Below are positions 53,238 through 57,105 of a DNA stretch of 64,000 bases, one piece after another. Every line of letters starts with the position of its first letter. Position 1 is the stretch's first letter. The stretch covers positions 1 through 64,000 of the forward strand of contig JAENWT010000003.1 of assembly GCA_016650125.1 (NCBI GenBank). The letters are read 5' to 3'. Both the position numbers and the translations under genes were made by a program. Origin of the DNA: Thermoleophilia bacterium. Lineage in GTDB: Bacteria > Actinomycetota > Thermoleophilia > Solirubrobacterales > 70-9. The notes under the pieces were generated by a model. That model did not search any database and was not told the origin of the DNA. It saw nothing but the letters and a program-made list of their open reading frames with translations.

Positions 53238-54209
53238 ATGTCTTCAACCGTCTCAACCGCTCCCAAGCGAGTGATCCTGGCCGCGCCCCGTGGCTACTGC
53301 GCGGGCGTCGATCGTGCCGTTCAGACGGTCGAGCGCGCCCTCGAGAAGCACGGCGCCCCGATCTACGTACGCAAGGAGATCGTCCACAACAAACACGTGG
53401 TCGAGGAACTCTCCGAGCGTGGCGCGGTCTTCGTCGAAGAGGAGACCGAGATCCCGGAGGGCGAAATGGTCGTCTTCAGCGCCCACGGCGTCTCGCCGGC
53501 GGTTCACGAGAACGCCAAGTCGCGGAATCTCCAGACGATCGACGCCACCTGCCCGCTGGTCACCAAGGTCCACGTCGAGGCCCGCAAGTTCGCGGCCGAC
53601 GGCTACACGATCGTCATGGTCGGACACGAGGGCCACGAAGAGGTCGAAGGCACGATGGGCGAGGCTCCGGAGAGCATCGTCCTGGTGCAGACGGTCGAAG
53701 AGGTCGATCGCCTCGAACTCGACGATCCGGACCACGTCGCGCTGATCACGCAGACCACGCTTTCGGTCGATGAGACCGCCGAGATCATCAGTCGCCTCCG
53801 CGAACGGTTCCCCGGGATCGTAACCGCCAAGGGCGAGGACATCTGTTACGCCACGACCAACCGCCAGATCGCGGTCAAGCAGCTCGCCAAACAGTGCGAC
53901 CTGGTGCTGGTCATCGGCTCGACCAACTCGTCGAACTCGAACCGCCTGGTCGAGGTCGCGCGCGAATACGGCTCGGAATCCTTCCTGATCGACAATCACA
54001 CCCAGGTCGAAGACGCCTGGCTCGATGGCATCGAGACCGTCGGCATCACCTCGGGCGCCAGCGCACCCGAAGAGCTGGTCGAGGACCTGGTTCAGTCCTT
54101 CCGTGACCGGGGCGTCGAAGACGTCTCCGAATTGCGCACGGTCGAAGAGTCGGTCCGCTTCATGCTGCCGAAGGAAATCCGGCCGCTACCGATGGTCCCC
54201 AGCTCCTAG
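53238..54209 (+). CDS. ispH: 4-hydroxy-3-methylbut-2-enyl diphosphate reductase
   Basis: Last step of the MEP isoprenoid pathway ([4Fe-4S] enzyme). The three cluster cysteines are in [23 protein letters not shown] and [11 protein letters not shown], with [12 protein letters not shown] and [16 protein letters not shown]. 323 aa. ATG 53238 lies 6 nt after TACCCT (53226-53231) without SD. A longer frame start at 53136 lacks family residues. Confidence 0.97.
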
Positions 54210-55033
54210 CCGGAACCCGCCTGGCTCACAGCGGGGGAGAAGCTGACCGACCAGATTTCCGGGTTGCCGTCGAGTGCGATCTCGATCCGGTGGCTGCCGT
54301 GCCGGTCGTGCTCAGCCAGTGTGTAGAGGCCGGCCCCGTCGATCTCGACCTGACCGACCGGCTCGCCGTCGAGCGACAGCACCAGCGCACCTTGTCCGGT
54401 AGCAGTCGCATGGACGCCGCCACCTTCGTATTCGACATCGAAGACGTTGCCGTCGGCGGTGGTCCACGGCCGCCCTTCGATCGGGATCAGCTCGGCCCCG
54501 GGTGCGATCACCTCGATTCCCTCGGCGTCGGTCGGCCGGACTGGATCCATCGGTTCCGGGAAGTTGGGCTCGGCGTCCGGTCCGAGCAGGCTTTTCTGGA
54601 TCGCTTCCTCGGTTCCGCGGTACTCGCCCTCGCCGAAGTGGAACCACTGGAGGATGCCGCCCCGGCCCCAGAGGAAGAGGCTCGGCCAGCCTTCGCAGCC
54701 GTATATGTGCCAGAGGGCCAGGTCCCCGTCGATCAGGACCGGGAACTCGACACCCAGCCGCTCGAGGCCGGCTTCGACCGCATCCGGGCCGGCGCCGAAG
54801 CCGAAGCGCGGGGCCTGGACCCCGATCACGCGCAGGCCGGAGTCCCGGTAACGCCGGTGCCACTCGCTTACATAAGGAAGGGTGCGCACGCTGTTCAGCT
54901 GGCTGAAATCGAAGAAATGGACGAGCACCGGGCCCTTGGCGGCCAGTGGGGCCATCTTGCCTGGGTTGCCACCGATCCAGGTGGCCTCCGGGGGCAGGTG
55001 CGGGGCGGCGATGTCGTCTCTGAGCGGGAGGAT
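54206..55033 (-). CDS. Thioredoxin-fold protein lacking the CXXC pair
   Basis: Residues [27 protein letters not shown] occupy the place where ResA/TlpA-type proteins have FW..CxxC; both cysteines are absent. [10 protein letters not shown] and [26 protein letters not shown] complete the fold, and a beta-rich C-terminal domain follows. The first ATG (54955) would cut the domain. The homologous region extends upstream ([19 protein letters not shown]) to an ATC at 55033, 6 nt after minus-strand TAATAT. An ATC leaderless start is therefore proposed, with ATG 54955 the conservative alternative. No thiol redox role is expected. Confidence 0.65.
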
Positions 55034-55090
55034 GGCCGGATATTACGGGCAGGTATGATTCGGGTCCCGCCCCCCGGACTAGGAGCTTTC

Positions 55091-55717
55091 GTGAATACCA
55101 AATTGTGGGACCGCATCGAGCAGGCACGGACCGACTGGAACGTCCTCGAGCATCCTTTCTACCAGCGCTGGTCGGCCGGTGAGCTGACTCGCGAAGAGCT
55201 GGCTGACTACTCCGGTCAGTACCGTTACGCCACCGAAGCGATCGCCCGGATGAGCTCCGACATCGCCGCGGCAGCCCCCGCCGGTGAGCGGGCCGGACTC
55301 GAGGCGCACGTCGTCGAAGAGTCGAGCCACGTCGCCATGTGGGACGGATTCGTGCGCGAGGTCGGCGGCACCGTCGGCGCCGAGCCGAACCCTGAGACTC
55401 TTGAATGCGTCGAGGCCTGGACCAAGGCTGACGGATTCGGCAAGCAGCTCGCCCGCATGTACGCGGTCGAGAGCGGACAGCCGTCGATCTCGAAGACCAA
55501 GACCGAGGGCCTCTCCGCCCACTACGACATCTACGACGGGCCGGGCAACCAGTACTTCACCATTCACGAGAAGATGGACGTCGAACATGCCGAAGCCGGC
55601 CGCAACCTGATCGAGCGGCATATGAACGACTTCAGTGAAGACGAACTGGTGACCGCGGCCGAAGAGGCCTTCAAGGCGAACTGGAGACTGCTCGACGGAG
55701 TCAGCCCGTCCTGCTAG
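55091..55717 (+). CDS. CADD/PqqC-like di-iron heme-oxygenase-fold protein
   Basis: A 208-residue protein of the TenA/PqqC/CADD superfamily. It closely resembles Chlamydia CADD: LEHPFYQRWSAGELTREELADYSGQY near the N-terminus, HVVEESSHVAMWDGF in the middle, then YAVESGQPSISKTKTEGL and YFTIHEKMDVEHAEAGRNLIE, which keep the metal-binding Glu/His positions. CADD makes p-aminobenzoate from its own tyrosine. The matching Tyr of EH-x-FY is kept here. GTG 55091 has AGGAG at 55081-55085 (5 nt). Confidence 0.8.
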   Translation: MNTKLWDRIEQARTDWNVLEHPFYQRWSAGELTREELADYSGQYRYATEAIARMSSDIAAAAPAGERAGLEAHVVEESSHVAMWDGFVREVGGTVGAEPNPETLECVEAWTKADGFGKQLARMYAVESGQPSISKTKTEGLSAHYDIYDGPGNQYFTIHEKMDVEHAEAGRNLIERHMNDFSEDELVTAAEEAFKANWRLLDGVSPSC

Positions 55718-57105
55718 AGCTCCCGCTCGCTCATGTTCTCGCCGCCGGCGAGGACATTCCCATACCGGCGTGGCTCTTCGCCTGGGGAGCTTCAGTTGTA
55801 CTCATAGTCTCGTTTTTCGCACTCTCCGCAGGCTGGCGCCGGGCCCGCTACGAGGGTGACTCCTGGCACCCGGCCTTCACCGGGTTCGGCAAGGTCATCG
55901 GATCGATCCCGGTCCGGATCCTCTGCGGCCTGATCGGGATATTCCTGCTCGGCGTCTCGATCTACGCCGGCTTCGAGGGCACCTCGGCGCCGGAGCGGAA
56001 CGTCGCGATCACCCTCCTGTTCGTCACCGCCTGGCTCGGCTTCCCGCTTCTCGGGGTCCTCTTCGGTGACGTATTCCAGGCCTTCAATCCCTGGAAGGCG
56101 ATCGCCACGCCGATCGGATTTGCCTACCGAAAGATTCTCGGACGAGCTCCGACCCACTTCACTTATCCGGAACGGCTCGGCCGCTGGCCGGCCGCGATCG
56201 GGCTGGTCGGATTCGTCTGGCTCGAGCTGGTCTACGGCGAAGGCAACGGCGTCTCGGTCGGCCTGGAACCCGAGGTCGTCGCTCGCGCCGCGATCGCATA
56301 TTCGGTCTATGCGCTCGGCATGACCGCCGCCTTCGGTCGCGAAGTCTTCTTCAGGAACGGTGAGACCTTCTCGGTCTACTTCGGCATGTTCGGCTCGCTC
56401 GGCAAGTTCGAGTTCCGCGACGGCGCCCTCGGTGTGAGGCGCTTCCTCTCGGGTTCGACCCGCTGGGTGTTCGGCCCGGGTTCGGTCGCCGTGATCATCG
56501 CCTCGATCGGCACCACGACCTTTGACGGTGCCCAGGAGGGTGTGTTCAAGGACGGCATCCAGAAGGTCCTCGGCTGGTTCAGCGACGCCGGCTTCGGCGC
56601 CACCGCCTCGACCCGGCTGGCGAGCACGACCTTCATGGTGATCAGCCTCACGATCGTCGCCCTGATCTACCTGCTCGGGGTGCGGGGGATGGGCACGGTG
56701 CCCGGAGCACCGGACCGGAAGACCCTTTGGCGGACCTTCGCCCACGCGCTGATCCCGATCGCCTTCGCCTACCTCCTGGCCCACTACTTCAGCCTCTTCT
56801 TCTTCCAGGAGCAGGCCCAGTTCACCTACCTCCTCTCCGATCCGCTCGGAACCGGAACCACCGACCTGTTCGGCACCGCCGGGTACGGCATCGATTTCAA
56901 CGCGATCAGCAACGACCTCGTCTGGTACGTGCAGGTGGGGACGCTGGTGCTCGGCCATGTCGCCGGACTGGTGCTCGCCCACGACCGCGCGATCACGACC
57001 TGGGGCGATTACCGCAAGGCGGCCCGCTCCCAGTACTGGATGCTCGCGGTTATGGTCGCTTTCACCTGCTTCGGCCTCTTCCTGCTCTCCGTCTCGAACT
57101 CCTGA
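55711..57105 (+). CDS. Polytopic membrane protein (actinobacterial fenitrothion-hydrolase-like family), non-canonical start
   Basis: About 464 residues and ~10 membrane helices. The conserved N-terminus (LPLAHVLAAGEDIPIPAWLFAWGASVVLIVSF) is in frame with the C-terminal part (FGREVFFRNGETFSVYFGMFG, LAHYFSLFFFQEQAQF, YRKAARSQYWML). No ATG, GTG or TTG exists between the in-frame stop at 55636 and ATG 56320, which would delete ~200 conserved residues. CTG 55711 overlaps the upstream gene's end (its TAG is at 55715-55717) and has GGAG at 55697-55700. A coupled CTG start is proposed. Function is unknown; the family name is only a database label. Confidence 0.75.
   Translation: MLELPLAHVLAAGEDIPIPAWLFAWGASVVLIVSFFALSAGWRRARYEGDSWHPAFTGFGKVIGSIPVRILCGLIGIFLLGVSIYAGFEGTSAPERNVAITLLFVTAWLGFPLLGVLFGDVFQAFNPWKAIATPIGFAYRKILGRAPTHFTYPERLGRWPAAIGLVGFVWLELVYGEGNGVSVGLEPEVVARAAIAYSVYALGMTAAFGREVFFRNGETFSVYFGMFGSLGKFEFRDGALGVRRFLSGSTRWVFGPGSVAVIIASIGTTTFDGAQEGVFKDGIQKVLGWFSDAGFGATASTRLASTTFMVISLTIVALIYLLGVRGMGTVPGAPDRKTLWRTFAHALIPIAFAYLLAHYFSLFFFQEQAQFTYLLSDPLGTGTTDLFGTAGYGIDFNAISNDLVWYVQVGTLVLGHVAGLVLAHDRAITTWGDYRKAARSQYWMLAVMVAFTCFGLFLLSVSNS

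Follow-up and report, generated by a model that had tools for sequence, protein, structure and literature searches.

The locus considered here raises the question of how a conserved membrane protein can be translated from a gene that offers no ATG, GTG or TTG at which to begin. It is located in a stretch of 64,000 nucleotides (nt), referred to here as the window, which comprises positions 1 to 64,000 of contig JAENWT010000003.1 from a Thermoleophilia bacterium of the order Solirubrobacterales (GTDB lineage 70-9; assembly GCA_016650125.1, 2.83 Mb in 41 contigs). The frame of the membrane protein is open from 55639 to 57105 on the + strand, following an in-frame TGA at 55636–55638. Its earliest ATG, GTG or TTG is the ATG at 56320, which leaves an open reading frame (ORF) of merely 261 amino acids. 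The 203 codons upstream of this ATG are coding, as they align to the proteins of congeners with a whole-protein identity of 62–78%. An earlier note, made from the letters of the window, had reported both the missing canonical start and the continuation of the protein over about 200 residues before the first ATG, and had proposed initiation at the CTG at 55711 with coupling to translation of the gene upstream. The comparison of related genomes bears out both observations and strongly supports CTG 55711 as the start of the membrane protein. It is highly probable, taking the parts together, that this CTG is decoded by the formylmethionyl initiator tRNA (fMet-tRNA), that it is reached by reinitiation, and that CTG is in use as a start codon across the family.

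From the CTG at 55711..55713 the gene extends for 464 codons (55711..57105, + strand) and aligns with 15 relatives from the N-terminus onward. The gene that it overlaps is located at 55091..55717 on the same strand and has a GTG start with AGGAG upstream. It matches PF14518 and PF03070 over their cut-offs and belongs with the CADD/TENA-like proteins. Against TIGR04305 it scores 108 bits, under the curated cut-off of 200, and it is therefore called CADD-like only. As the earlier note had stated, the CTG overlaps the stop of this gene, with the TAG at 55715–55717 and the CTG 4 nt upstream of it, the two together forming the sequence CTGCTAG.

Orthologs of the membrane protein gene were found adjacent to a CADD-like gene at 18 loci in 17 species of one genus, the window included, with one genome (G006) contributing two copies. 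The relatives sampled include 'Solirubrobacterales bacterium 67-14' and HKST-UBA63 to 68. The 18 orthologs are all without a canonical start close to the N-terminus and share a CTG at a single alignment column, 15 or 16 codons ahead of a PIPAWLFAW motif. No ATG, GTG or TTG lies between the upstream in-frame stop and the conserved coding sequence in the window and in 17 of the 18 loci; in the exception (L006) the frame continues upstream inside the CADD-like gene, where the one canonical codon is a GTG located 378 nt ahead of the CTG. The in-frame stop is merely 9–15 nt upstream of the CTG in several species, and the start is therefore bounded on both sides. In one locus (L013) the interval has no near-cognate codon besides the CTG, and those found there in other species come and go, which leaves the CTG as the sole one kept in 18 of 18. 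Since the missing canonical start and the CTG recur in all orthologs, from independent assemblies, chance is excluded.

Conservation is also seen in the frame of the CADD-like gene, in which the C of the CTG is a third base. The last codon of this gene is TGC, TCC, GCC, GTC, CCC, ACC or AGC, always (18/18) ending in C, and over the last 14 codons no third base other than the C of the CTG is invariant. Of all third bases in the window's own genome, 49% are C. Family members that are not behind a CADD-like gene, which are paralogs in the same genus and proteins of other genera, have GTG (L014, L020, L021 and L064), ATG (L019) or TTG (L056 and L066) at the CTG column, often in a GTGA or TTGA overlap with an unrelated upstream gene. 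Some others have an ATG one or two codons from this column. The relatives do not start at the residue that matches ATG 56320.

The membrane protein is encoded in 55 of 61 related genomes, and the more distant relatives have a longer N-terminus and a start further upstream. No family or relative was found in Pfam, NCBIfam and PDB, the three databases to which the search for a function was limited. The ortholog in genome G009 (L094, G009:C11:455421-456760) was matched as two pieces, with the CTG start region intact, which suggests a frameshift or an assembly error inside this gene.

The stop and start overlap takes the form CTGA at 15 of the CADD-adjacent loci, CTGCTGA at two and CTGCTAG at one, the window, and is thus of the NTGA type. 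In the window the CADD-like gene ends one codon later than in the relatives, with the CTG retained. The earlier note had also pointed to a GGAG as a ribosome-binding sequence. Its position (55697..55700, + strand) and its spacing of 10 nt from the CTG are as given there. As a Shine-Dalgarno element it is a weak candidate and is not conserved: it falls within the codons for 'DGV' of the CADD-like gene, where relatives have GGGG, GGTG or GGCC. The overlap is therefore the better-supported aid to initiation, and its short, conserved form supports translational coupling, as judged from the alignments. Ribosomes that finish the CADD-like gene would terminate over the CTG and restart there, by termination-reinitiation of the kind expected for a CTGA-type overlap. 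The CUG at 55711 would most likely be read by the normal initiator fMet-tRNA, so that the protein would begin with (formyl)methionine.

Other genes lacking a canonical start were sought by setting 1.0 Mb of the window's own genome against 1.04 Mb from two congeners, which gave 319 conserved ORFs. There were 27 flagged ORFs, most of which were discarded on inspection as arginine-rich shadow frames over adjacent genes. Three more conserved genes without a canonical start remained, these being pyrF, clpX and a gene for a redoxin-like protein. The pyrF gene (L106:17498; G000:C3:101498), orotidine monophosphate decarboxylase by PF00215, has a CTG in the CTGAG where it overlaps the HU-like gene upstream. 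Within the genus this arrangement is shared by every congener that could be read (15 of 15).

The clpX gene (L112:8652; G000:C3:212652) encodes the zf-C4_ClpX and AAA_2 domains and in the window's own genome has a CTG behind CCCAGGAGCGAAGACCG, with AGGAG upstream. Among congeners its start column is CTG in nine, ATG in five and GTG in three. Within the family, clpX could be scored in 46 of 50 genomes; the pattern with CTG was found in 28 of the 50 and a canonical pattern in 18 others (GTG in 11, ATG in five, TTG in two), with no genome having both. The sequence AGGAGGGG is present ahead of the CTG in many family genomes. The 19 family loci with a CTG outside the genus mostly have no canonical start nearby upstream, and often have AGGAGGGGATTCCG directly before the CTG. 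The CTG pattern was not found in any of 182 genomes from the order's other three families, nor in about 390 sampled genomes from elsewhere in the phylum, these being pattern matches only, with canonical-pattern matches there not counted. Across this family of Solirubrobacterales, CTG would therefore appear to be a regular, selected start codon, exchangeable with ATG, GTG and TTG. It would serve in stop and start overlaps, as in pyrF, the membrane protein gene and probably some further genes, and also, as in clpX, behind a good Shine-Dalgarno sequence.

A screen by coding potential gave further candidates for CTG starts. In the window's own genome these are a sensor kinase (C3:76071, - strand), a nucleotidyltransferase (C9:26521, - strand) and a membrane protein (C5:48432, - strand), all with CTGA overlaps, and a glycosyltransferase (C9:54789, + strand). 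In G009 there is coaE (L199:113; G009:C11:60113, - strand), where a CTGA overlaps the upstream stop (TCCTGACC). The names of these candidates come from reading the sequences, with no family search. The screen flagged 18 of 813 genes in the window's own genome, 8 of 697 in G009, 0 of 203 in G001 and 3 of 386 in G040, which is of another family. No genome-wide rate is drawn from these counts, since the screen includes false positives and overlooks some genuine cases, such as the ortholog in G001. In G040 glmM (L303:7176; G040:C1:7176) has a seeming ATC start after CGGAGC. As a conserved trait this was rejected, with only two genomes of the order, G040 and one other, matching.

The redoxin-like gene (54206..55033, - strand) is divergent from the CADD-like gene and has a conserved 13-residue N-terminus before its first ATG. 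Annotation would begin it at ATG 54955, 26 codons late. Its apparent start codon is an ATC (55031..55033, - strand), at a column that is ATC in 14 congeneric species and GTG, ATG or TTG in three congeners and in other genera. A -10-like hexamer, TAATAT (55040..55045, - strand), ends 6 nt before the ATC, and TANNNT begins 12–13 nt upstream of the start in the ATC species and in many of the relatives with GTG or ATG. Such a hexamer about 6–7 nt before the start codon is a leaderless arrangement. In these 14 species the mRNA of the gene is thus apparently leaderless, with ATC as its start codon, to judge by the conserved column and hexamer.

A broader reading can be put forward tentatively. Discrimination among start codons may be relaxed generally in this family, with CUG and leaderless AUC as ordinary start codons and some change in the initiation machinery; the chance of this is appreciable, though it falls a little short of even. 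An altered initiator tRNA was considered as the cause and rejected. This tRNA, one of 30 tRNA loci read out of 45, has the anticodon CAU, the C1xA72 mismatch and a GGG/CCC stem with three G-C pairs, all intact, and is therefore not the reason. Initiation factor 3 (IF3) has no obvious loss as inspected by eye only.

The alternative that survives best is that CTG is a start of low efficiency, retained in a few genes to limit their expression, with no general relaxation in the lineage. Non-canonical starts can reportedly tune expression (PMC11445065), and in the genus of the window it is the CADD-adjacent copy that keeps CTG while its paralogs have GTG, TTG or ATG. The start of clpX alternates between CTG, GTG, ATG and TTG among close relatives, and this switching fits a tolerance of CTG better than a dedicated throttling. 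Throttling is accordingly regarded as unlikely, although of all the alternatives it keeps the largest share of probability. A programmed -1 frameshift at the 3' end of the CADD-like gene, giving a fusion of the CADD-like and membrane proteins for which no start codon is required, is very improbable. The two frames do overlap, and in every species the membrane protein frame is uninterrupted over some or all of the 3' end of the CADD-like gene, but the variable final codons before the TGA or TAG contain no conserved slippery run, and the common open stretch is about 10 nt in some species. Moreover, paralogs without a CADD-like gene have a GTG, ATG or TTG of their own at or beside the same column, and a frameshift could not account for clpX or the redoxin-like gene.

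Hardly different in its small probability is a start at some other near-cognate codon (ATT, ATC, ATA or CTG, before PIPAWLF) or, for a shorter protein, at ATG 56320. Such near-cognate codons are present in most species, but none is conserved, the codon at -3 varying between ATT, ATC, ATA, CTG and CTC. A near-cognate start before PIPAWLF would drop the conserved LPLAHxLxxGxD segment, and one at ATG 56320 would drop several membrane segments. The weakest alternative, an error of sequencing or assembly, or else the decay of a gene whose start codon has been lost, draws on the metagenome origin of the assemblies and on the truncated ORF that standard annotation would give, but is of negligible probability, as the canonical start is absent from 17 species of unrelated projects, which excludes sequencing error, while the frame is intact and conserved and the C is invariant within an otherwise variable last CADD-like codon.

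Initiation at CTG 55711 with CTG in use across the family has several points weighing against it. PMC11497404, citing Hecht et al. 2017, gives the output from CUG in E. coli as 0.86% of that from AUG, and a selection in mycobacteria did not enrich CTG, even when a Shine-Dalgarno sequence was present (PMC4633059). Efficient use of CTG would therefore need a further factor. The basis of the whole case is comparative sequence, and nearly all of the genomes compared are uncultured assemblies. In addition, CTG is a common leucine codon, and the candidates found by coding potential are therefore less certain.

Should initiation at CTG hold, the lineage would be a natural counter-example to the values measured in E. 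coli and mycobacteria and a comparative route to what sets the stringency of start codon choice. The clpX column, at which close relatives have CTG, GTG, ATG or TTG, is a ready-made experiment. In practice Prodigal and the annotation pipeline PGAP accept only ATG, GTG and TTG. If CTG starts clpX and pyrF in the lineage, the annotated N-termini of both are wrong, and if discrimination is relaxed generally, a noticeable share of genes would be cut short or overlooked throughout public annotation.

CUG is viewed as an almost unused start codon in bacteria. A non-canonical start that is conserved across species is the AUU of infC, a single autoregulated gene; the starts described here are like it in their conservation between species and unlike it in that several unrelated genes have them. 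Among the literature searched, none dealt with the start codons of Solirubrobacterales. In bacteria CUG accounts for 0.024% of start codons, as given in PMC11497404, citing Hecht et al. 2017. The rare CUG initiation described there would resemble the case here in that fMet-tRNA(CAU) can, in principle, read the codon with a mismatch at the first position. The difference is that here CTG appears to start conserved core genes and to predominate at clpX in one family.

Four-nucleotide gene overlaps have been described as ATGA or GTGA (PMC10666635). As in those -4 nt overlaps with termination-reinitiation, in which translation is coupled, an NTGA is common to stop and start, but here it is CTGA and is conserved across a genus. 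The redoxin-like neighbour resembles the leaderless genes of mycobacteria (PMC4633059) in having a -10-like hexamer immediately before the start codon, but those begin with ATG or GTG and this one apparently with ATC. Among approximately 69,000 ancestral starts in 36 genome groups, four switches to CUG were recorded (Belinky et al. 2017, PMC5622118). The exchange described there, in which ATG, GTG and TTG replace one another while the position stays fixed, is also seen here, with the difference that CTG takes part on an equal footing. This is, on the comparative evidence, a known but very rare type of start used in a new way, serving one family as a regular, conserved start codon.
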